Positions 32,331-43,807 of a stretch of 57,227 nt of DNA are shown here, in pieces. Both the position numbers and the translations under genes were made by a program. Below the pieces are notes generated by a model. It saw nothing but the letters and a program-made list of their open reading frames with translations, ran no database searches and was not told the origin of the DNA. Numbering within the stretch: the stretch's first letter is position 1; each line of letters begins with the position of its first letter. This DNA comes from an uncultured Rubrobacteraceae bacterium. GTDB taxonomy: Bacteria; Actinomycetota; Rubrobacteria; Rubrobacterales; Rubrobacteraceae. The stretch lies in NCBI GenBank assembly GCA_902805975.1, contig CADCUT010000010.1:1-57227 (forward strand), given 5' to 3'.

Positions 32331-32534
32331 TATGTTCGTCTGCTTCCAGCGGGTGTGCGCGCCGAGGTTCTCGGCTTCGGGGAACTCCTCGCCTTTGGCT
32401 AGCTGGACCCGGATCGGGGGGAGCATCGTCCCCCGGTCGCAGACGAAGGTCCCGGAGAACGGGGCCTTGTCGCCGGGCGCGTAGGTGGGGCCGTAGTGCC
32501 GGTAGCGGGCGAGGATGTCGTCGAGGTTCGCCAT
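32322..32534 (-). CDS. Small YjzC-like protein (70 residues)
   Basis: The segment GPTYAPGDKAPFSGTFVCDR resembles the GxxYxPGDxAPxSGxY motif of the YjzC/small-beta family. The rest is short and polar. ATG overlaps the serA stop (TGATG), so it is translationally coupled to serA. The C-terminal three residues and the stop come from repeat E3. Function unknown. Confidence 0.7.
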   Translation of the reverse strand: MANLDDILARYRHYGPTYAPGDKAPFSGTFVCDRGTMLPPIRVQLAKGEEFPEAENLGAHTRWKQTNIQA

Positions 32535-34114
32535 CACAGCGTCACCGCGCGGGCCTCGTTGAAGCCTGGGGTCTCGAGAAAGATCTTCAGGACCTCTTCC
32601 GGCACGGGCTCGTCAACGGTGACGGCCATCGCGGCGCGGGAGCCGGGCTCGCCGCGGCCGACGGCCATGTTGCCGATGTTGATGCCGTGCTCGCCGAGTA
32701 TGGAGCCGGCCCTGCCGATCATGCCAGGGACGTCCTCGTTGCGGATAAAGAGCATGTTCTTCTCCGGCACCACGTCGAAGTCGTAACCCATCGCCTCGAC
32801 CAGCCGCGGCTGCATCTTGGGACCGCTCAGGGTCCCGCTCACCACGTTCTCGCCCGCCCCGCCGTCGAGGCGCAGCACCACGAGGCTCGTGTAATCGTGG
32901 CTCTCCGTAACCCGGGAGGTCTCGAGGCGCAGGCCCCTGTCCTTCGCGAGTATCGGGGTGTTCACGAAGTTGAGCGGCTCGTGGACCATCGGCGCGAGCA
33001 GCCCCTTCTGGGCCGAGACGTCGAGCAGGCGCGTGTCGAAGCCGGCGACCTCGCCCCTGTACTCTACCTTCAAGGTGTCGCCGGGGCGGTCCGTGAGCTG
33101 GTAGAGGAGGCTCCCGAGCGCCTCGCACAGGCCGGAGAATTGGGCGACGAACTCGGCGCCCTCGCCCACCGGCACGGGGGCGTTTATGGCGTGCATCGGG
33201 ACCTGCCCCCCGAGCGCCGCGGCGACCTGCTCGGCGGCCGTGATGCCGGCCCTATCCTGGGCCTCGGCGGTGCTGGCGCCTAGGTGCGGGGTGACGACGA
33301 CGTTCGGGAGGGAGAAGATCGGGGACTCCGTCGTAGGCTCCTCGGCGAAGACGTCGAGCGCCGCCCCGCCGATGACGCCGCTCTTCAATGCCTCGTAGAG
33401 CGCCCCCTCATCAACGATGCCGCCGCGCGCGACGTTTATGAGGTAGGCGGTCGGCTTCATCTTCCCGAGGGCCTCCGCTCCCACGAGGCCCAACGTCTGG
33501 GGCGTTCGCGGGACGTGAAGCGAGATGAAGTCGGCGTTCTCGAAGACCTCGTCCGCCGACGCGGCCCGCCCGACGTTCATCGAGCGCATCCGGTCCTCGG
33601 AGACGTAGGGGTCGTAGGCGAGCACCTTCATGCCCATGCCGATGGCGCCGCGCGCGACGATGGCCCCGACGTGGCCGAGGCCCACGAGGCCCAAAGTCTT
33701 CTCCCTGACCTCCACACCCTTGAAGGCGCTCCGCTTCCACTCCCCGTTCTTGAGCGAGGCGTCGGCCGCAGGTATTCGTCTCGCGGCGGCGAGCATGAGG
33801 CCAAGGGTGTGCTCCGCCGCCGCGACGGTGTTGCTCTCCGGGGCGTTGGCGACGATGACGCCGCGCTTGGTGGCGGCCTCTATGTCTATGTTGTCCACGC
33901 CGATACCGGCGCGGCCGATGGCTTTGAGGTTGTCGGCCCTCTCGATCACCCCGGCCGTAATCTGGGTGGCGCTGCGGATAATCAGGCCGTCGTACTCGCC
34001 GATCTTCTCCAGCAGCTCCTCGGGGCTCAGGTCCAGGAGGACGTCGACGTCAAAGTCCTTTCTAAGAAGCTCGATGCCGGGCTCGGCGAGCTTCTCCGGG
34101 ATCAGGACCTTCAA
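32534..34114 (-). CDS. serA: D-3-phosphoglycerate dehydrogenase
   Basis: A 526-residue SerA of the long actinobacterial form: substrate and nucleotide domains (LKAIGRAGIGVDNID; TLGLVGLGHVGAIVARGA; NVARGGIVDEGALYEAL; VVVTPHLGASTAEAQDRAG), an intervening ASB domain (about 315-450), and a C-terminal ACT domain (LFIRNEDVPGMIGRAGSILG). It makes 3-phosphohydroxypyruvate, the first step to serine; the ACT domain suggests serine feedback. TTG 34114 overlaps the aminotransferase stop by 4 bases, so the two enzymes are coupled. Confidence 0.96.
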   Translation of the reverse strand: MKVLIPEKLAEPGIELLRKDFDVDVLLDLSPEELLEKIGEYDGLIIRSATQITAGVIERADNLKAIGRAGIGVDNIDIEAATKRGVIVANAPESNTVAAAEHTLGLMLAAARRIPAADASLKNGEWKRSAFKGVEVREKTLGLVGLGHVGAIVARGAIGMGMKVLAYDPYVSEDRMRSMNVGRAASADEVFENADFISLHVPRTPQTLGLVGAEALGKMKPTAYLINVARGGIVDEGALYEALKSGVIGGAALDVFAEEPTTESPIFSLPNVVVTPHLGASTAEAQDRAGITAAEQVAAALGGQVPMHAINAPVPVGEGAEFVAQFSGLCEALGSLLYQLTDRPGDTLKVEYRGEVAGFDTRLLDVSAQKGLLAPMVHEPLNFVNTPILAKDRGLRLETSRVTESHDYTSLVVLRLDGGAGENVVSGTLSGPKMQPRLVEAMGYDFDVVPEKNMLFIRNEDVPGMIGRAGSILGEHGINIGNMAVGRGEPGSRAAMAVTVDEPVPEEVLKIFLETPGFNEARAVTL

Positions 34115-35268
34115 GCGGTCACCCCGCTCTTGGAGAAGACCCGCTGCGCCGCACCCACGCCCCGGCCGAGCTCGACGGGGAAGTCGAGCGACTCGAGCGC
34201 GAGCTCCGTGGCGGCTATCGTGGCGATGATGTCGAAAGCGTCGAAGTAACCGCAGTGGCCGATCCGGAAGATCCTGCCCGCCATGTCCGCCTGGCCGCCC
34301 GCGATCTGTATGCCGTGCTCGCGGAAGATCATGCGCACGAGCTGCTTGCCGTCGACACCGTCTGGCACCCACGCCGCCGTCACGGCCGAGTTCAGATCCT
34401 CGTCAGGCCCGAAGAGCGAGAGCCCCATCCCCTTGATGCCCTCACGCGAGGCGCGTCCGAGCATGACGTGGCGCCTGAACACGTTCTCAACACCCTCGTC
34501 CAGAAGCTGTTGCAGCGCGACGTCGAGCTGGATGATGAGGCTGACGGCCGGCGTCCACGCCGTCTGGGCCGGGTCCTTGGCGTAGGCCTTCTTGGCGGCC
34601 GTCCAGTCGAAGTAGAAGCGCGGCATCTTCGCGTCCTCGTGCATCCGCATCGCCCGCTCGCTAACGCTCACGAACCCGAGGCCGGGCGGCGTCATGAGCG
34701 CCTTCTGGCTCCCCGCGACGACCACGTCAACGCCCCAGTCGTCGGTCCGAAGCTCGCAGGCCCCGAGGCCCGAGACGGCGTCCACGATGGAGACGACGTT
34801 CGAGGCGGCCTTCGCGAAGCCCTCGATGTCGTTTACGGTGCCCGTCGAGGTCTCCGAGAGCACGCAGACGGCGGCCTTGATCCCGGGGTCCTTGGCCAGA
34901 GCCTCGGCGACCTCGTCGTTGTCGGCCTTCTGGCCCCAGTCGTACTTCAGCTCGGTCACCTCGAGGCCGAAGGCCCGGCCCATCTTTACCCAGCGTCCGC
35001 CGAAGTTGCCGTTGTTGACGACGAGCATCTTGTCGCCCGGCGAGAAGAGGTTCTGGATGGCCCCCTCGAAGGCCCCCGTCCCGCTCGCGGCGTAGGTAAA
35101 GACGTCGTTCTCCGTCAGGAAGACCCTCTTCAGCGCCTCGTTCACCCGGGTAAAGACCTCGCCGAACTCGGGGGTCCTGTGGTGGATGATCGGCAACGCG
35201 CCCGCCGCCGAGACCTCGGGCGGTATCGGGGTCGGTCCGGGCGACATGAGACGGTACTTGTTCATCAT
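34111..35268 (-). CDS. Class V aminotransferase (serine-glyoxylate/alanine-glyoxylate type, probably phosphoserine pathway)
   Basis: A 385-residue PLP enzyme with MSPGPTPIPPEVSAAGALPI at the N-terminus, FTYAASGTGAFEGAIQNLF, and the cofactor lysine in VVVAGSQKALMTPPGLGF. Such enzymes next to serA often supply the transamination step in place of SerC; this is inferred from the operon. Start ATG 35268 (or the adjacent 35265) lies after AGAGGAA. Upstream, TAGTTA and TACAAT spaced by 17 bases (about 35300-35330, minus strand) are a plausible promoter. Confidence 0.9.
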   Translation of the reverse strand: MMNKYRLMSPGPTPIPPEVSAAGALPIIHHRTPEFGEVFTRVNEALKRVFLTENDVFTYAASGTGAFEGAIQNLFSPGDKMLVVNNGNFGGRWVKMGRAFGLEVTELKYDWGQKADNDEVAEALAKDPGIKAAVCVLSETSTGTVNDIEGFAKAASNVVSIVDAVSGLGACELRTDDWGVDVVVAGSQKALMTPPGLGFVSVSERAMRMHEDAKMPRFYFDWTAAKKAYAKDPAQTAWTPAVSLIIQLDVALQQLLDEGVENVFRRHVMLGRASREGIKGMGLSLFGPDEDLNSAVTAAWVPDGVDGKQLVRMIFREHGIQIAGGQADMAGRIFRIGHCGYFDAFDIIATIAATELALESLDFPVELGRGVGAAQRVFSKSGVTA

Positions 35269-35464
35269 GGTTTCGGAGGTTCCTCTCTTGCTGCGGGCTA
35301 CTAGATACACCATTGTAGCCATGATCCCCACGGATAACTACATAGTGGCGCAGGCGGCTAACAAAGTGTTGCTTGCGCCGCAACCTGCCCGGAGAATGGG
35401 GCCTCCGGTATACTGCCCGGCGTCGCTATTGAGCCTGTTGCAGCTTCGTGAGCAGGGAGGATAG

Positions 35465-36058
35465 GTGGCCGAGAGGATCGATGCCAGGGAGACCGGCAAA
35501 TTCTTCCTGAACGTCCCACAGAAGCTCGACGACCCGTTCCCGGACCTCGCGTACTTCAGGGAGAACAGGCCCGTCTTCTACCACGAGGCGCTTGGCCAGT
35601 GGTTCGTCTTCCGGCACGAGGACGTCTCGAAGCTCTTCTCCGAACCCAGGATGAGCGCGGGCCGGATGAAGGGCTTCGTGGACGCGGCCCCCGAGGAGGT
35701 AAGGGAGGATCTGAGAGAGGTCATTCCCCGCATAGCCCTCGAAGAGGTAGAGTTGCGCGGCGCGTCCATCCGCGCGGGCCAGATCGTGCAGCTCAGCATC
35801 GCCTCGGCCAACCGCGATCCATCCCACTTCCCGGACCCGGACCGCTTCGATATCACCAAAGAACGCGGCCCCACCCTCAGCTTCGGCCACGGCCCGCACG
35901 GCTGCCTGGGGGCGCTCCTGGCGATGGAGGAGGCCAGGATCTCGCTCGAGACCCTCTTCCGCCGCATGCCGAAAATGCGCCTCGACGAGACACGCGAGAT
36001 AAGGTGGTACCGCAACGCCGCCAACCGTGGTCCCGACTCCCTCCCGCTGGTCTTCTGA
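35465..36058 (+). pseudogene. Cytochrome P450 with a large in-frame internal deletion
   Basis: The first about 85 residues (DPFPDLAYFRENRPVFYHEA onward) match the P450 N-terminus and the last about 107 carry the late beta region (VIPRIALEEVELRGASIRAG) and the heme-binding loop FGHGPHGCLGA with Cys147. Normal bacterial P450s are about 400 residues. About 200 residues, including the oxygen-binding I helix (AGxDTT) and the ExxR motif, are missing between EVREDLRE and VIPRIA. The frame stays open. The heme ligand alone is unlikely to give an active monooxygenase. GTG 35465 follows GGGAGG. Confidence 0.85.
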
Positions 36059-36068
36059 GCCCTCTGTC

Positions 36069-36857
36069 ATGGACCACGAGGAGGTCGGCCGCTACTGGGA
36101 CGAGAACGCCGAGGTCTGGACGGAGCTGGCGCGGGCCGGCTACGACGTCTACAGGGACGGCCTGAACACCCCAGCCTTCCTGGACCTGCTCCCCGAGGTC
36201 AGCGGCCTCTCCGGCCTCGACCTCGGCTGCGGCGAGGGCCACAACACGAGGCTCCTGGCCAGACGCGGCGCGCGCATGACGGGTATCGACATCTCCGGAA
36301 CCTTCGTCCGACACGCGATGGAAGGTGAGGCCGGTGAGCCCCTTGGCATCCGGTACGAGAGGGCGAGCGCCGTGGAGCTTCCCTTCGAGAAAGGCAGCTT
36401 CGACTTCGCCACCGCCTTCATGAGCCTCATGGACATTCCGGAAGTAGAGAAGGTTCTAGCGGAGGTCTTCCGGGTCGTACGGCCCGGCGGGTTCTTGCAG
36501 TTCTCGATAGAGCATCCGTGCTTTACCGCCTCGCACAGCAAGACACTCAGGGACGGGCGGGGGCGGGCGTACGCGCGCGAGGTGGGAGGCTACTTCCGGG
36601 AGGAGAACGGCGAGGTGCAGGAGTGGATCTTCAGCGCGGCCCCGCCGGAGGTCAGGGCGGGGCTGCGGCCTTTTCGCGTCCCCCGCTTCACGCGAACCTT
36701 GAGCCGGTGGCTGAACTCGCTGATCGAGGCCGGGTTCGTGCTCGAAAGGCTCGCCGAGCCGTACCCAGGTGACGAGTCCGTCCGGCAGCACCCCGGGCTG
36801 CAGGGCGCCCGGGTGTTCGCCTACTTCCTCCACGTCCGGGCGCGAAAGCCCGGCTGA
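36069..36857 (+). CDS. Class I SAM-dependent methyltransferase
   Basis: A 262-residue methyltransferase starting MDHEEVGRYWDENAEVWTEL. Motif I is LSGLDLGCGEGHNTRLLARR, the acidic loop is MTGIDIS, and motif III-like VRPGGFLQFSIEHPCFTA follows; this last form is common in methyltransferases of small metabolites. ATG 36069 is 10 bases after the P450 stop, so the two were probably one transcript. Substrate unknown. Confidence 0.9.
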   Translation: MDHEEVGRYWDENAEVWTELARAGYDVYRDGLNTPAFLDLLPEVSGLSGLDLGCGEGHNTRLLARRGARMTGIDISGTFVRHAMEGEAGEPLGIRYERASAVELPFEKGSFDFATAFMSLMDIPEVEKVLAEVFRVVRPGGFLQFSIEHPCFTASHSKTLRDGRGRAYAREVGGYFREENGEVQEWIFSAAPPEVRAGLRPFRVPRFTRTLSRWLNSLIEAGFVLERLAEPYPGDESVRQHPGLQGARVFAYFLHVRARKPG

Positions 36858-36863
36858 GAACAC

Positions 36864-38102
36864 CTATCCGAACCCCGCCCCTTCGAGCGCGGGGAGCGCC
36901 GAGCGGGTGTAGCGGGCGGCGTACCCGGCGCCGGCGCGGTCGGGAAAGTCGTGGGGCTTCCTCCCCCGAAACTCGTCGGCCTCGACCCCGGTACGGATGC
37001 GGCCCTCGGTCAGGGAGATCCTGAGGGTGTCTCCGTCCCGCAGGCGGGCGATGACGCCCCCGGCCGCGGCCTCGGGGGAGAAAAGCGAGATCCAGGTGCC
37101 AGAACCGGAGCGTGGCGGAAGCCCGTCGGTGATGATTGGCACGATGTCCGCCAGCCCGTACTCCTCCAGAACCTGCCCGAGCCGTTCCAGGCGGGAGATC
37201 CCGGGCGCGCCCCTGGGCCCGCAGCCGCCGACGACGAGCAGGGTCTGGGGCTCAACGAAGCCCCCCTCGACCAGCCTGACGACGAACTTCTCCGAGTGGT
37301 GGACCCTGCACTCGCCCGAGATCTCTGCCAGCCCCGCGTCGACCCGGCAGAGGGCCCTGGCCCCGCTGGCCCTGGCCTCCACGAACGCCAGCCGCGTCCC
37401 GTCGAACCGGGGAGGCTCGGGTACGGTGGCGGGCAGCACCTCGCGCAGGCGCCCCGCGACGGTCGCCTGGTCGTTCAGAGAATCGCCGAGAAGCGCCAGC
37501 AACCCGGGATTGCCGTGCCGGGTGAACCATTCGGAGTGGGGCTCGGCGATCTGTGGGGTCTCGGGGACGATCACCCCGAGCGTCTGGGAGAACCCGGTGG
37601 ATCCGGCCTCCCTGGCGATGGCCGCGAGGTGGACCAGCAACTCGGGCCCTCCCCCGAGCGAGAGGCCGGCTCTAAGAGCGTTGACGAGGGAGAACTCGTC
37701 GATAAGGCCCCCCGGCCGTGGCCTCCCGGTCCTGGCGGCCTCCACGGCGACCGGCGCCGGGTCGTCCGCCAGGGGTACGAGGCCGAGCGCCGCAAGCGCG
37801 GCGGTGAGGTAGAGATCGCCGCTGGGCGCGGCGACGGTAGGGAGGTTGGCACGTAACGCGGCGAGAACGAGCCCGGCCTGCTCCTCCGGGGGCTCGGCGG
37901 CGAGGAGCAGGCCGTCCAACCGCTGCCGGTAGCAGGAGATCTCGGCCGCGTCGGCGACCCACTCCCGCGAGAGGGCGACGCCCCCATCAAGCCAGACGGC
38001 CGGCAACGCCATCGGCACCGGCTCGGCGCCGGCCTCCCGCAGCGTCTCCGCGAGGTTCTCCGCCGCGGCGGGGACGCCGACGCGGGGTATGAGCCCGGAC
38101 AC
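36864..38102 (-). CDS. Divergent IlvD/Edd-like protein lacking the Fe-S cluster cysteines
   Basis: A 412-residue protein. SLVNALRAGLSLGGGPELLV, GPRGAPGISRLERLGQVLEE, IITDGLPPRSGSGTW and SLFSPEAAAGGVIARLRDGD correspond to conserved blocks of dihydroxy-acid and 6-phosphogluconate dehydratases. The N-terminal half, however, lacks the CDK and GxCxGM cysteine motifs that hold the cluster, and the usual TDGRFSGGT is altered. IlvD proteins are about 560 residues, so about 150 are missing. It may bind a sugar or keto acid or have lost catalysis. It lies 5 bases downstream of gatB, in the gat operon. Confidence 0.7.
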   Translation of the reverse strand: MSGLIPRVGVPAAAENLAETLREAGAEPVPMALPAVWLDGGVALSREWVADAAEISCYRQRLDGLLLAAEPPEEQAGLVLAALRANLPTVAAPSGDLYLTAALAALGLVPLADDPAPVAVEAARTGRPRPGGLIDEFSLVNALRAGLSLGGGPELLVHLAAIAREAGSTGFSQTLGVIVPETPQIAEPHSEWFTRHGNPGLLALLGDSLNDQATVAGRLREVLPATVPEPPRFDGTRLAFVEARASGARALCRVDAGLAEISGECRVHHSEKFVVRLVEGGFVEPQTLLVVGGCGPRGAPGISRLERLGQVLEEYGLADIVPIITDGLPPRSGSGTWISLFSPEAAAGGVIARLRDGDTLRISLTEGRIRTGVEADEFRGRKPHDFPDRAGAGYAARYTRSALPALEGAGFG

Positions 38103-38107
38103 GGGGG

Positions 38108-39577
38108 CTAGGAACTCAGCTTCTGGAGGAGCAGCTCGCGGGCGCGTCCGCCGTCGGCGTTGCCGCGGGTGGCCTTCATGACCTGGCCCATCAGGAAGCC
38201 AACGACCTTCTTGTCGCCGTTCCGGACCCGCTCGGCCTCGTCGGGGTTGGAGGAGATCACGCCATCCACCACCCCGTCGAGCTCGTCGGCCTCCACGGAG
38301 CCAAGCCCCTCGCGCTCGACGACCTCTGACGGGCCCTCGCCGGTCTTGAAGACCTCGGCCAGCACCGTCCTCGCGGCGGATCGGGAGACCTTGCCGTTTC
38401 CGACCAGCCGGATCAACTCGACCATGTGCCCCGGGGTCACCTTCGAGCCGGAGAGGTCGGCGCCGGACTCGTTGAGAAGCGCCCGGAAGTCGCCGGAGAT
38501 CCAGTTAGACGCCTGCTTCGGGTCTACCTCTGCTGCGACCTCCTCGTAGAAGGCGGCGAGCTCCCTGTCGGCGGCGAGGACGCCGGCGTCGTACGGGGAG
38601 AGGCCGTACCGCCCGACGAACCGGGCGCGCATGGCGTCCGGCAGCTCGGGCATCCGGTCCCCTATCTCGCGGACGTAAGCCCGCGAGAGCTCCAGGGGCA
38701 ACAGGTCCGGCTCGGGGAAGTAGCGGTAGTCGTGGGCGAACTCCTTGCTGCGCAGCTCGTGGACCTCATCGGTCTCCGGGTCGTAGTGGAGGGTCGTCTG
38801 CTCCACGCGCCCGCCGCCGGCCAGGATCTCCTGCTGCCGCGCGAGCTCGGCGGCTATCCCCTTCTCGACGAAGCGGAAGGAGTTCATGTTCTTTAGCTCG
38901 GTCTTGGTGCCGAAACTACCGTCGGGGTTGCGGATGGAGACGTTGGCGTCGCAGCGGAGCTGGCCCTTCTCCATGTCAGCCTCGGAGACGCCTATGGCCC
39001 GCAGGATGTCCTTTAGGTAGTTCGCCGTGGCGCGGGCGGCCTCCGGCGAGGGGATGTCGGGCTCGGTGACGATCTCCATGAGGGGCGTGCCGCCGCGGTT
39101 GAAGTCCACGAGCGAGCCGACCGAGCCGTGCATCCGGCCCGAGGTTCCGACGTGGACGTTCTTGGCCGCGTCCTCCTCGAGGTGAAGGCGCGTGATGCCC
39201 ACCCGTATCGTCTCGTCCCCGTCGGGTGTACCGGCGGGGACGTCCAGATATCCGCCGGTACAGATCGGCTCGTCGAACTGGGAGATCTGGTACCCCTTCG
39301 GAAGGTCCGGGTAGAAGTAGTTCTTGCGCGCGAAGACGGCCCTCTGGGAGACGTCGCAGTTCAGGGCGAGCCCCGCCATAACACCTAGCTCTATGGCCTT
39401 CTCGTTGGCGACGGGCAGCGCCCCGGGATGCCCGAGGCAGACCGGACACGTGTGCGTGTTCGGGGGCTCGCCGTAGGTCACCCGGCAGCCGCAGAACATC
39501 TTTGTTTGTGTGGCCAGATGCACGTGAAACTCGAGCCCTATTACCGCCTGGTACGTGCGCCTCTCCTGTGTCTGCAA
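38108..39577 (-). CDS. gatB: Aspartyl/glutamyl-tRNA(Asn/Gln) amidotransferase subunit B
   Basis: A 489-residue GatB starting (M)QTQERRTYQAVIGLEFHVHL. It has CGCRVTYGEPPNTHTCPVCL (zinc-binding cysteines), KNYFYPDLPKGYQISQFDEP, CDANVSIRNPDGSFGTKTEL, and a C-terminal tRNA-binding YqeY-like tail ending LLQKLSS. It activates Glu-tRNA(Gln) and uses ammonia from GatA. TTG 39577 is chosen over upstream codons because GGAGGG lies eight bases before it and the family N-terminus starts here. Confidence 0.97.
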   Translation of the reverse strand: MQTQERRTYQAVIGLEFHVHLATQTKMFCGCRVTYGEPPNTHTCPVCLGHPGALPVANEKAIELGVMAGLALNCDVSQRAVFARKNYFYPDLPKGYQISQFDEPICTGGYLDVPAGTPDGDETIRVGITRLHLEEDAAKNVHVGTSGRMHGSVGSLVDFNRGGTPLMEIVTEPDIPSPEAARATANYLKDILRAIGVSEADMEKGQLRCDANVSIRNPDGSFGTKTELKNMNSFRFVEKGIAAELARQQEILAGGGRVEQTTLHYDPETDEVHELRSKEFAHDYRYFPEPDLLPLELSRAYVREIGDRMPELPDAMRARFVGRYGLSPYDAGVLAADRELAAFYEEVAAEVDPKQASNWISGDFRALLNESGADLSGSKVTPGHMVELIRLVGNGKVSRSAARTVLAEVFKTGEGPSEVVEREGLGSVEADELDGVVDGVISSNPDEAERVRNGDKKVVGFLMGQVMKATRGNADGGRARELLLQKLSS

Positions 39578-39612
39578 AGTGGTAGCCCTCCGCCGCGCGT
39601 CGCCTACTAGGA

Positions 39613-39640
39613 AATATTCTAGCATCGGGGATGGGTGCAA
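39613..39640 (-). promoter_or_regulatory. Possible promoter for gatB
   Basis: On the minus strand TTGCAC (39635-39640) and AATATT (39613-39618) are separated by 16 bases, some 36 bases upstream of the gatB TTG. The context is otherwise AT-poor. It would let gatB be transcribed apart from gatC-gatA. Confidence 0.35.
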
Positions 39641-39660
39641 ATACCGTCGGAAATCCGGTT

Positions 39661-40212
39661 CTACAGCCCCTCGTAGATCTCCGCCAGGGTCAAGGACATC
39701 TCTGGGCATGGGACCGAGAACCCTCCCTCATCCACCAGGTCAGCCCTGATCCACACGCCCTCTTCGTCCCGGAAATGCCGCTCGACCAGCATCCGCTCCT
39801 GGTCCAGGATAAGGTAAGCCTTGAGGCCGGGGACGCGCCTGTAGGCGGCGAGCTTCTCGCGCCGGTCCGTGCTCTCGGTGCCCGGGGAGACGACCTCGAC
39901 GACCAGGCACGGGGCGTCTTCGTAGTAGGGGTCATCCGGCTCGGTACCGCAGGCGGCCATCACGTCCGGGTAGTAAAAGACGTCGTCGATCCGGAGTTTG
40001 ACCGTCTCCATGTAGACCCGGCACGGGCCCCCCGCAGCCGCGTCGGCCAGCCGCCTGTACACGTTGCCGGCGATCCTGTTGTGCCGCCTGCTGGCCCCGG
40101 TCATCGCGTAGACCTCGCCGGCAACGTACTCGTGGCGCACGGTGGCCGTCTTCTCCATCTCGAGGTAGTCCTCTACGCTCAAGGGGCCCTGCGTGGCGGC
40201 GCGCTCGACCAT
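39661..40212 (-). CDS. Uma2-family (DUF820) PD-(D/E)XK-like endonuclease
   Basis: A 183-residue protein with SVEDYLEMEKTATVRHEYVA, the region FYYPDVMAACGTEPDDPYYE and LVVEVVSPGTESTDRREKLA, then YRRVPGLKAYLILDQERM, the complete Uma2/DUF820 pattern. The Asp-Val...Glu-Val residues form the predicted nuclease site. Members are abundant in cyanobacteria and actinobacteria and their targets are unknown. It sits between gatA and gatB, splitting the gat operon. Confidence 0.9.
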   Translation of the reverse strand: MVERAATQGPLSVEDYLEMEKTATVRHEYVAGEVYAMTGASRRHNRIAGNVYRRLADAAAGGPCRVYMETVKLRIDDVFYYPDVMAACGTEPDDPYYEDAPCLVVEVVSPGTESTDRREKLAAYRRVPGLKAYLILDQERMLVERHFRDEEGVWIRADLVDEGGFSVPCPEMSLTLAEIYEGL

Positions 40213-40250
40213 GCAAGGAGTATAGCGCAGCCGCGCTCCGCTCCCGCCGG

Positions 40251-41699
40251 CTACGGCCTCGGCGAGAACCCGAAGTCGGCGACCCTCTCGGCGGCGCGGG
40301 CCGCGCGGAGGAGCATGCCTTCAGTGAAGTGGTCGCCCATGAGCTGCACGCCGACGGGGAGGCTTTCCGAGAGGCCGCCGGGGACGCTTATGGCCGGGAC
40401 GCCGGCGAGGCTCGCGGGGACGGCGCAGATGTCCTGCAGGTACATGGCGAGCGGGTCGTCGGTCTTGGCCCCGATCTCGAAGGCCACAGAAGGCGAGGTC
40501 GGGGAGACGAGGATGTCGTAGCGGGCGTAGGCCTTGCGGAAGTCCTCTATGATCTTCGTGCGGACCTTCTGGGCCTGGGCGTAGTAGGCATCGTAGTAGC
40601 CGGAGGAGAGGGCGTAGGTGCCGAGCATGATCCGGCGCTTCGCCTCCGCCCCGAAACCCCTCTCCCTGGTCCTCCGGTACATCTCGTGCACCCCGTCGGC
40701 CGGCACCCGTAGCCCGTAGCGGACCCCATCGAAGCGGGCGAGGTTCGAGGAGACCTCAGCCGGCGCGATGATGTAGTAGGCCTCCAGCGCGTAGTAGGCG
40801 TGCGGCAGGCTGACCTCCCCCACCTCGGCCCCGGCCGCTTCGAGCCCCGTCGCGACCCGGCTCGTCACCTCCCGTACCCCGGCGTCGATGCGCTCGTCCA
40901 TTAGCTCCGTGACGACCCCGACTCGGAGGCCCTCCACGCCGTCTTCGAGGTTCGCCAGGTAGTCAGGGACCTCGACGTTGGCGCTCGTCGAGTCGCGCGG
41001 GTCGTGGCCGGCGATCGCCTGCAAGAGCAGGGCGGAGTCCTTTACGTCGCGGGTCATCGGGCCTATGCAGTCGAGGGAGGAGCCGAAGGAGATCAGGCCG
41101 TAGCGCGAGACCCGCCCGTAGGTGGGTTTCAGCCCCACGATGCCGCAGAGGGCGGCCGGCTGGCGCACGGAGCCGCCCGTGTCCGTGCCGAGCGCCCACC
41201 AGCCCTCGCCGGCCGCAACCGCAGCCGCCGAGCCGCCGGAGGAGCCGCCGGGCACCCTGCCCGTGTCCCACGGGTTGCGGGTGGGACCGTAGGCGGAGTT
41301 CTCCGTCGATGAGCCCATCGCGAACTCGTCCATGTTGGACTTGCCTACCATCACCGGCTCCTCGCCGAAGTTGGCGAGCGCCGAGGCGTCGTAGAGGGGT
41401 GTGAAGTCCTCCAGGATCTTCGACCCGCACGTCGTCCTTACCCCGCGCGTCGAGAGGACGTCCTTCACGACGATGGGCACGAGCTCCCAGGGCTTTACGC
41501 CGCCGCCCGGTAGCCGTCCGTCCACCCGGCCGGCCCGTTCCAGCGCAAGCTCCGGGGTGGTCGTCACGAAGGAGTTGAGGTCGCCGTCAACCTCTTCGAC
41601 GCGCCCGTTGGCCGCTTCGGCGGCCTCCCGGACGGAGGCATCGCCGGCCGTAATCCTCTCGGACAACCCGTGGGCGGTGAGGTTCAGGAGATCTTCCAT
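40251..41699 (-). CDS. gatA: Aspartyl/glutamyl-tRNA(Asn/Gln) amidotransferase subunit A
   Basis: A 482-residue amidase-signature protein. The catalytic Lys is in PIVVKDVLSTRG, the glycine-serine-rich signature is GRVPGGSSGGSAAAVAAGEG, and GTDTGGSVRQPAALCGIVGL holds the nucleophile Ser. It hydrolyses glutamine to deliver ammonia to GatB. The ATG shares a base with the gatC stop (TGATG), so the two are translationally coupled. Confidence 0.97.
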   Translation of the reverse strand: MEDLLNLTAHGLSERITAGDASVREAAEAANGRVEEVDGDLNSFVTTTPELALERAGRVDGRLPGGGVKPWELVPIVVKDVLSTRGVRTTCGSKILEDFTPLYDASALANFGEEPVMVGKSNMDEFAMGSSTENSAYGPTRNPWDTGRVPGGSSGGSAAAVAAGEGWWALGTDTGGSVRQPAALCGIVGLKPTYGRVSRYGLISFGSSLDCIGPMTRDVKDSALLLQAIAGHDPRDSTSANVEVPDYLANLEDGVEGLRVGVVTELMDERIDAGVREVTSRVATGLEAAGAEVGEVSLPHAYYALEAYYIIAPAEVSSNLARFDGVRYGLRVPADGVHEMYRRTRERGFGAEAKRRIMLGTYALSSGYYDAYYAQAQKVRTKIIEDFRKAYARYDILVSPTSPSVAFEIGAKTDDPLAMYLQDICAVPASLAGVPAISVPGGLSESLPVGVQLMGDHFTEGMLLRAARAAERVADFGFSPRP

Positions 41700-41980
41700 C
41701 AGTCGATCCTCGGCACGGCGAAGAGGTCGTCGACGGCATCGGGGGCCGGGGCAAGGGCCTCCTCGCTGGTGAGCTCGGGCCGGGACTCATCTGGTCTGAG
41801 GACGTTCGAGAGGTTCAGGGGGTTCGCCGTAGGCGGCGTGTCCGCGAGGTCGAGCTCCCGGATCTTCTCGATGCTGTCGAGGATCGCGTCGAGCTGTCCC
41901 CCCATCTCCCTGATCTCGTCCTCCGTCAAACCCAGCCGCGCCAGGCTGGCGACGTGCCGTACCTGTTCTTCAGAGATCAT
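41699..41980 (-). CDS. gatC: Aspartyl/glutamyl-tRNA(Asn/Gln) amidotransferase subunit C
   Basis: A 93-residue GatC: MISEEQVRHVASLARLGLTE, then LDAILDSIEKIRELDLADTPPT and a C-terminus ending DAVDDLFAVPRID. The length is normal. It stabilises the GatA-GatB complex and opens the operon gatC-gatA-Uma2-gatB. ATG 41980 follows a GGAGGTGGGAGATG stretch, a strong ribosome binding site. Repeat E4 lies upstream. Confidence 0.95.
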   Translation of the reverse strand: MISEEQVRHVASLARLGLTEDEIREMGGQLDAILDSIEKIRELDLADTPPTANPLNLSNVLRPDESRPELTSEEALAPAPDAVDDLFAVPRID

Positions 41981-42052
41981 CTCCCACCTCCGGGTGTTTT
42001 CGTAACGGGGTCTCTTTCGAGGCGTCGTCTCATCTTAGAGCATCTCGCCGCC

Positions 42053-42190
42053 AAGGCTTTGAGGTTCTAGTTTCAAGGTATTGCATTGAGGCCCGGAAGC
42101 CGGCGATCCAGGACACGCCCCGCAGCACAAGCTTCGCCGACCACCCCTCAAAACCTCGAACCTCAAAGCCTAGAACCTCAGAACCTACAA
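42053..42190. repeat. Heptad-armed inverted repeat element E4 (3' end of the pyrophosphatase gene)
   Basis: The left arm AAGGCTTTGAGGTTCTAG and the right arm (CCTCAAAACCTCGAACCTCA, then AAGCCTAGAACCTCAGAACC) are inverted and share AGGCTTTGAGGTTC. On the minus strand the right arm supplies the TAG stop of the pyrophosphatase (LTIL, then TAGGTTCTGAGG). The interior of about 75 bases is unlike that of other elements. Confidence 0.75.
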
Positions 42191-43807
42191 GATCGTCAAC
42201 AGGGCGGGCGCGACCTGCTTTTTGCGGCTCATCACGCCGGGGAGCTCTATGACGCCCTCGCGGGGCTGGGAGTCGAAGGCGTGATGCACGGCGGAGCAGT
42301 CCCCGACGCACAGGAGTTGGGTGCCGCCCTGGGTGATGTCCGTGACCATGAGCGCCGAGAAGACGTAGCCGTTCTCGGCGCGCAGGCTCTCGAGCGCCGC
42401 GACGAGCTCGTCCTTGCGCTCGAGCAGGCCGGGCCCGACGGTCTCTATCTGGGAGACGCTCACCCTGTCGCCCGAGCTCGTCCCGTACTCCTTGGCGTCT
42501 CGGTTCACGATCTGCTCCCCCGAGAGATCCGAGACGTCGGATGAAGCCTCGAACATCTCCCGGCCGAAGGCCTCTGCGTCGAGGTCGAGGAACTCCTCGA
42601 GCACCTTGACGATCTCGCGGTCGCGGTCGGTGGTGGTCGGGGAGTTCAGGATCACGGTGTCCGAGAGGATCGCCGCGAGGAGCATCTTCGCGGTCGATAC
42701 TTCCGGCCTGAGGCCCGCCGTCTTGAAGCGCTCGACGATGAGGGTGGCCGTCGAGCCCACGGGGTCGAAGGTGGCCGGTATCGGGGAGGACGTCTCTATG
42801 TCGCCGACGTGGTGGTGGTCCAGGATCTCGACGACCTCGGCCTTCTCCACGCCCTTGACGCTCTGGCCGATCTCGGCGTGGTCCACGAGCAGAATGCGCC
42901 TGGGCCTCGGGTTCAGGAGGTTCGTCCTCGTGACCACGCCTATGGGCACCATGTTCTCGTCGACGGCTATCGCCGCGCGGTAGTGGACCTCCATCACCTG
43001 CTCGGTTATGTCCGTTATAAAGTCGTCCGGGTGGACGGTCAGGGGTCTCTCGCTCATTATCTCCCAGCTCGGGACGGAGAGCTGTATCAGGCGGCTCGTC
43101 ACGTAGGAGTCGAGCGGCGAGAGGACCACGCCCGTCCCCCGCTCCCCGGCCATCTGGAGCACTTCCTCCTCGGGCCTCACACCGTTTGAGACGATAAGCA
43201 CCCCGGCGCCGAGCTCTATGGCCCGTCTCTGGGCCTCCGGGCGGTCGCCCACAACGACGATGTCCCCCTCTTTCATGGACTTGCCCATCGAGTCAACGCC
43301 CATCGAGATGACCCACAGCTGGCCGTCGCTCCCGCGGTCGGGGCCGGCGAGCAGCTCCCCTTCGAGCACCTCGACCATCGCCCCGACGCTCACCGGGCTG
43401 TCCTTAAAGGAGGAGGCCCCCCGCGACTCCCGGACGTACATGCGCGCCAGGTTCCGCTCCGTGATGATCCCGACCAGCGAGCCGTCATCGTCCACGACGG
43501 GGAGCTGGCTTATGTTCCGCTGGGCCATCGTGAGGCCCACGTTGCGCAAGGGATCGTTCTTGTGGGCGACCGCCACATCCCGCGCCATCACGTCCTTGAC
43601 CCTGAGCATTATGTGCCGGATCCTCTTCGGCGATTTCGCCCCGCTCTTCTCCAACGCCCACGCCGTCTGCGGGTTGACGTCGCCGAGGCGGGCCGGCGCG
43701 TACTCGTTCTCAGGGTCCACGAGGTTCTTGAACTCCGCGTACCCGATGGCCGAGGCTACCGAGTCGGTGTCGGGGTTTTTGTGGCCTGTGACGTAGACGT
43801 GTGGCAT
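42185..43807 (-). CDS. ppaC: CBS- and DRTGG-domain manganese-dependent inorganic pyrophosphatase (family II)
   Basis: A 540-residue enzyme. The DHH phosphatase core is split: the N-terminus GHKNPDTDSVASAIGYAEF and, after the regulatory insert, LVDHAEIGQSVKGV and EILDHHHVGD, then the DHHA2 region ending MSRKKQVAPALLTIL. The insert (about 70-300) holds two CBS domains (VKDVMARDVAV; SERPLTVHPDDFITD) flanking a DRTGG-like domain (GDRPEAQRRAIELG). Adenine nucleotides control this enzyme type: AMP and ADP inhibit, ATP or dinucleotides activate. It hydrolyses pyrophosphate from biosynthesis. ATG 43807 is preceded by AGGAGAATTAGCA. Confidence 0.95.
   Translation of the reverse strand: MPHVYVTGHKNPDTDSVASAIGYAEFKNLVDPENEYAPARLGDVNPQTAWALEKSGAKSPKRIRHIMLRVKDVMARDVAVAHKNDPLRNVGLTMAQRNISQLPVVDDDGSLVGIITERNLARMYVRESRGASSFKDSPVSVGAMVEVLEGELLAGPDRGSDGQLWVISMGVDSMGKSMKEGDIVVVGDRPEAQRRAIELGAGVLIVSNGVRPEEEVLQMAGERGTGVVLSPLDSYVTSRLIQLSVPSWEIMSERPLTVHPDDFITDITEQVMEVHYRAAIAVDENMVPIGVVTRTNLLNPRPRRILLVDHAEIGQSVKGVEKAEVVEILDHHHVGDIETSSPIPATFDPVGSTATLIVERFKTAGLRPEVSTAKMLLAAILSDTVILNSPTTTDRDREIVKVLEEFLDLDAEAFGREMFEASSDVSDLSGEQIVNRDAKEYGTSSGDRVSVSQIETVGPGLLERKDELVAALESLRAENGYVFSALMVTDITQGGTQLLCVGDCSAVHHAFDSQPREGVIELPGVMSRKKQVAPALLTIL

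Follow-up and report, generated by a model that had tools for sequence, protein, structure and literature searches.

The locus and its genes

The window, by which we mean the whole stretch of 57,227 nucleotides analysed from contig CADCUT010000010.1 of an uncultured Rubrobacteraceae bacterium, carries on its minus strand the genes gatC-gatA-gatB-short IlvD-serC-serA in that order. The gatA gene (40251–41699) matched TIGR00132, and the ORF at 41699–41980, which we take to be gatC, has its place before gatA and gave tblastn matches in relatives. The gatB gene spans 38108–39661 (38108–39709 in the ORF list) and scored 602 bits with NCBIfam NF004012 when 517 aa were tested, residue 36 being the first matched by the profile. 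On the other side, a class V aminotransferase of the serC/AGXT kind (34111–35331), whose profile scores were below the curated cut-offs, is followed by serA for phosphoglycerate dehydrogenase (32534–34117; TIGR01327, 615 bits). Between gatB and the serC-like gene lies the short gene studied here (36864–38102, minus strand), which has 412 codons, a GTG start placed 5 nt past the gatB stop and a stop codon ending at 36864. Thus, its assignment to a tRNA amidotransferase operon, first made from the bare sequence, was borne out.

The short protein has a predicted IlvD/Edd fold

The short protein passed the curated cut-offs of both Pfam families of IlvD/Edd enzymes. The ILV_EDD_C model (PF24877) matched residues 258–409 with 78.6 bits (E 5.5e-22; cut-off 27.7), and the match to ILVD_EDD_N (PF00920) was weaker at 43.7 bits (E 2.5e-11; cut-off 27), in agreement with the sequence-only reading, which saw clear blocks of the family in the C-terminal half. 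These were its sole Pfam matches, and no homology to GatA, GatB or GatC was found. All the 30 orthologues scanned matched both models at E ≤ 0.001, and the profile search proposed along with the original assignment thus confirmed it. The best NCBIfam score was 108.6 bits, where the cut-off for dihydroxy-acid dehydratase (TIGR00110) is 644. A comparison with the sequences of solved structures, with an E of 1 as the limit, gave 19 matches, 18 of them to IlvD/Edd enzymes and the other at an E of 0.21.

The AlphaFold2 model obtained from a 30-row alignment had a mean pLDDT of 90.3 and a pTM of 0.92, and predicted an N-terminal alpha/beta domain and a C-terminal beta-barrel domain as in the solved members. 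All 25 Foldseek matches at E ≤ 0.001 were from the IlvD/Edd family, the best being 6nte (E 1.8e-26). The superposition of the model by VIA-align on this dihydroxy-acid dehydratase of Synechocystis gave a Z of 38.0 and an rmsd of 3.0 with 404 of 412 residues aligned; Z was 34.1 for the other dihydroxy-acid dehydratase (6OVT) and ~30–31 for the sugar-acid dehydratases and 6-phosphogluconate dehydratase (5J85, 5OYN, 2GP4). The short protein also shares the SRE-D, N141, H158, TDG, PE and GD blocks with IlvD. These results together showed that it is a member of the IlvD/Edd family. It is ~150 residues shorter than the intact IlvD of its own genome, as had been estimated.

The known active site is lost and other residues have become conserved

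The residues of 30 short proteins were compared with those of 35 dehydratases in one alignment. The short family was represented by the window and 29 other loci, leaving out two contig-cut copies (L065, L067), the frameshifted L054, a fragment (L066) and the two fragments of G033, and the dehydratases came from 35 of 36 fetched regions, the IlvD of L135 having been missed by the motif filter. The definitions of cluster, Mg and catalytic sites were taken from PMC5770437 and PMC11316719, the former giving Cys 60, 128 and 200 of CcXyDHT as the [2Fe-2S] ligands of a catalytic IlvD/Edd dehydratase.

None of the three cluster cysteines is kept in any of the 30 short proteins. The column of the first is a gap in 30/30, no residue of CDK is kept in any of them (P71 P72 E73 in the window), and the column of the third is a gap in 29 and Leu in one, so that the absence of Fe-S cysteine motifs noted earlier held in all the orthologues aligned. 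The Mg-ligand columns (Glu/Asp, Asp, carbamylated Lys and Glu) are occupied by G40, P72, E73 and R304 in the window; the Mg-binding Glu of GM.EM and the first Mg-ligand Asp were each found in 1/30. The catalytic Ser column holds Pro in all 30, and the Arg column of motif 2 (TD[GA]R.S) holds Leu, Val, Ile or Met and never Arg. In all these respects, as well as in length, the short protein is unlike IlvD, and it likewise differs from the sugar-acid and 6-phosphogluconate dehydratases in having no cluster, Mg or catalytic residues; the C-terminal His described for sugar-acid dehydratases in PMC11316719 is also missing. Furthermore, the alignment showed no counterpart of the N-terminal extension, which in dehydratases forms a recognition helix closing the partner's site.

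The dehydratases have 65 invariant columns; 25 of these are conserved in ≥90% of the short family members aligned, and 28 in <10%. Conversely, 58 positions are near-invariant in the short family; 33 of these have the dehydratase majority residue and 25 differ from it, including W48, G152, W192, R244, S246, P330 and W337. Several fall in former active-site segments. Residues 150–155 (GGGPEL; 37638–37655, minus strand) replace the dehydratase GGSTN, with G152 invariant and E154 nearly so; residues 244–251 (RASGARAL; 37350–37373, minus strand) replace the N[LV]AP segment and bring in R244 and S246; and in residues 325–330 (TDGLPP; 37113–37130, minus strand) the catalytic Ser position is the invariant Pro330 and the motif-2 Arg position is Leu328. 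By the alignments, the stretch of residues 42–97 (37812–37979, minus strand) contains a helix with a retained (S)REWxxD block followed by the degenerate CDK position. The helix itself (42–60) is retained in the short proteins with R46, E47 and D51. As a helix of the N-terminal domain makes up the dimer core according to PMC5770437, we infer by analogy that the (S)REWxxD helix would be the dimer-interface helix of the short protein. Thus, the scaffold is preserved in the short family and the residues of the known chemistry are gone.

These new near-invariants could also mean new catalysis. A new enzyme, in which the old cleft was rebuilt with metal-independent catalytic residues to act on a small acid, is in our view the second most likely explanation, though a rather improbable one: G152, E154, R244, S246 and P330 lie at former active-site segments, D326 is kept and the gene is under purifying selection (see below), but no catalytic constellation was recognised and positions 71–73 on the metal side of the cleft are variable among the short proteins.

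A new metal site made of C252, C265 and C294 was considered separately and rejected, all three being present in just 21 of the 31 sequences with data. As C265 and C294 were in addition lost jointly in three short proteins, no cysteine set is essential.

The short gene is maintained across the family

An orthologue or its pieces were found in 34 of 35 genomes of the same family, at 41–76% identity. Counting three further family members among the matches listed by the phylum search, the short gene is present in 36/38 same-family genomes, and the two genomes without it are 60% and 79% complete. The genome-by-genome search covered the window's own phylum. In the profile search of 396 genomes of this phylum, the matches listed outside the family were open frames of ~520 aa or more, except for one frame of 359 aa in G257 and that of 202 aa in G314. 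A contig scan with peptides of the window protein found no relative, and that with the conserved peptides of the alignment returned at least 28 loci; 27 belonged to the short family and the other, among the matches listed, was an archaeal stretch (L104) with 23% identity. The matching records were mostly Rubrobacter or Rubrobacteraceae, and one with an orthologue was from Rubrobacter taiwanensis.

The short gene had no internal stops in 31 non-fragmented or contig-cut loci. When nine orthologue pairs with 65–97% amino acid identity were compared by NG86, dN was 0.017–0.261 and dS 0.147–0.949 with a ratio of 0.12–0.35, and the differences were mostly at third codon positions. As judged from these substitutions, the short gene is under purifying selection and not in decay. 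The 25 new near-invariants that differ from the dehydratase majority, together with dN below dS, suggest that the function of the short family has been both changed and maintained.

Simple decay or an assembly artefact was considered in this light. Other gat-linked ilvD genes do decay, as the internally deleted remnant behind gatB in G187 illustrates, and the short gene of G030 is in frameshifted pieces. However, the open frames, the dN/dS ratios and the presence of the gene in nearly all family genomes speak against it, and no orthologue with intact cysteines was seen among the 30 aligned, which the sequence-only reading had named as the sign of simple decay. In G030 (L054) not only the short gene but also serC and serA are in broken pieces, which suggested sequencing errors. 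The decay explanation is contradicted by these data already, and we consider it extremely improbable.

Linkage with gatB and the actinobacterial gat-ilv-ser cluster

In each of the 33 loci measured (the window and 32 others of the family), the short gene lies behind gatB in the same orientation, and the survey of gat linkage thus found it conserved. Counted from the gatB stop, the position equivalent to residue 1 was ≤30 nt away in 30/33 loci and 138 nt at most, the value for the frameshifted L054 being unreliable. A simple scan of start codons in these loci gave an ATG candidate in six (one inside gatB), only GTG or TTG in 21 and none in six. Such closeness to the gatB stop and the mostly weak start codons suggest co-translation with GatB. 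A promoter consensus scan of 34000–42400 was uninformative (0 promoter-like sites, 0.6 expected).

The order of genes was also looked for in other families. In 11 of 62 other actinobacterial genomes, each from a different family, ilvD followed gatB in the same orientation at a distance of 0.2–12.8 kb, when by a rough estimate fewer than one such linkage would be expected by chance. The short gene of the window's family is thus much nearer to the gatB stop. With 11 of 62 genomes, the case for an ancestral gatB-ilvD linkage comes from its spread over 11 families and not from a majority. Three fetched clusters (L146, L147 and L150, the last with gatC in front) had the order gatA-gatB-ilvD-ilvB-ilvN-ilvC-serC-serA, and partial versions of it were seen in others. 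Compared with these clusters, the window has the short gene in the ilvD slot and ilvBNC gone. The place after gatB is therefore common to the short gene and to the ilvD of several actinobacterial families, and the gat linkage looks, from gene order, to have been inherited from a cluster of branched-chain amino acid and serine genes.

The tight spacing with gatB had been read as co-expression with translation-quality genes. Co-translation with GatB fits with the closeness and the weak starts, whereas the translation-quality meaning was not supported in that form, as intact ilvD also occurs downstream of gatB in the 11 genomes. We regard an accessory role of the short protein in GatCAB amidotransferase or translation as very unlikely. 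Its position directly behind gatB in 33/33 loci, when gatA and gatB themselves are up to 6.6 kb apart in family loci, and the suggested co-translation would fit with such a role, but the neighbourhood is common to clusters whose slot holds ilvD, dependence on the coupling alone could hold the gene order, and only IlvD/Edd domains were found in the protein.

The remnant of G187 (actinobacterial family f50; L155, 1647–2123) lies directly behind gatB and has the N-terminal part of IlvD joined to its last part in one open frame, and another ilvD is ~17 kb off.

Intact IlvD copies and the descent of the short gene

All 17 family genomes tested have an intact IlvD that scores above the cut-off for its family (on contig C68 in the window's genome), and ilvC was found in 16/17. 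In six genomes (G006, G012, G016, G024, G027 and G030), ilvC, ilvD and the short gene are far apart on one large contig. With intact IlvD present elsewhere, the short gene is not needed as a pathway enzyme. The short protein might instead regulate or stabilise the true IlvD, with which it would form a mixed dimer by way of the interface helix that it has retained. Helix 42–60 with R46, E47 and D51, when set beside the N-terminal-domain helix described as the dimer core in PMC5770437, and the intact IlvD in every genome tested agree with this idea; we consider it quite unlikely, since the alignment shows no N-terminal recognition helix that could close the active site of the partner, 20–25% identity to solved relatives makes mixed dimers less likely and the short gene is unlinked to intact ilvD.

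In a tree built from 405 columns of 35 dehydratases together with 14 short proteins out of the 30, the short family formed one clade on a very long branch with support of 100/100, and the intact Rubrobacter IlvDs were in a separate, starred clade. Joining the short family to the clade with gat-linked ilvDs (p-AU 0.41) or to PGH-type enzymes (p-AU 0.39) was compatible with the data, and a joint clade with Rubrobacter IlvD was marginally disfavoured (p-AU 0.0625). Thus, a recent duplication of Rubrobacter IlvD as the origin of the short gene is marginally disfavoured by the sequences. The position of the gene suggests its descent from a gat-linked ilvD, which the sequence neither proves nor rejects.

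A probable cofactor-free pseudoenzyme

A new job for the short protein is probable, as the parts needed for the known chemistry are lost and yet the gene is carefully preserved. The most likely reading, to which we give a probability of about one half, is that it is a cofactor-free, ligand-binding pseudoenzyme derived from a gat-linked ilvD and probably dimeric. The short gene would hold, in degenerate form, the position that ilvD has in the actinobacterial gatCAB-ilvDBNC-serC-serA cluster. In the Rubrobacteraceae, ilvBNC would have left the gat cluster and the metabolic job would be done by another dihydroxy-acid dehydratase, of full length and encoded at a separate locus. The gat-linked copy may then have kept its two domains and the helix at the centre of the dimer interface while losing the N-terminal extension, the catalytic serine, the Mg ligands and the loops that bear the first and third cluster cysteines, and may have gained near-invariants at former active-site segments (GGGPE, RASG, GxGP and TDGxxP) and also W48, W192 and W337. 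The descent from gat-linked ilvD, the dimer formation and the regulatory function by ligand binding are the steps that we infer here, and the ligand is perhaps an amino acid from the branched-chain or serine pathway, or else a small acid of the 2-oxo or 2-hydroxy type. Both possibilities raised by the sequence-only reading, a non-catalytic protein and a new mechanism, are thus live readings.

Pseudoenzymes as a class have kept the fold and lost the catalytic residues while the gene remains under selection, and the short protein resembles them in all three. In the open-licence PMC papers searched, no IlvD/Edd member described as a pseudoenzyme was found, and by title or abstract no paper describing the short protein or a cluster-less IlvD. 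A wider proposal would be that, across the whole family, an Fe-S dehydratase gave up its metals and had its cleft rebuilt, and that the resulting protein performs a new reaction or senses branched-chain or serine-pathway acids, its synthesis depending on GatB translation and so tying amino acid status to tRNA amidation; this is speculative and we hold it to be unlikely. With an IlvD fold and no Mg or cluster ligands, the Rubrobacter-family clade provides a natural experiment on the capacities of this fold when free of cofactors. The short genes are also an annotation trap, being liable to receive the label of dihydroxy-acid dehydratase.

Other features of the neighbourhood

A 183-aa ORF (39661–40212, minus strand) lies between gatA and gatB; it has no NCBIfam match and presumably resembles a Uma2-type protein. 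It was found in the same place in L041, L042, L057 and L060 and was unmatched in others. On the plus strand, opposite to the short gene, a methyltransferase-like gene (36027–36857) ends ~6 nt from the stop of the short gene and was matched there in some relatives only. A 197-aa cytochrome P450-like ORF (35465–36058, plus) has an N-terminal part fused to the haem-binding C-terminal part. The P450 parts are ~0.6 kb apart in the relative G006 (L040), and the copy in the window seems to be ~200 residues short, in frame.
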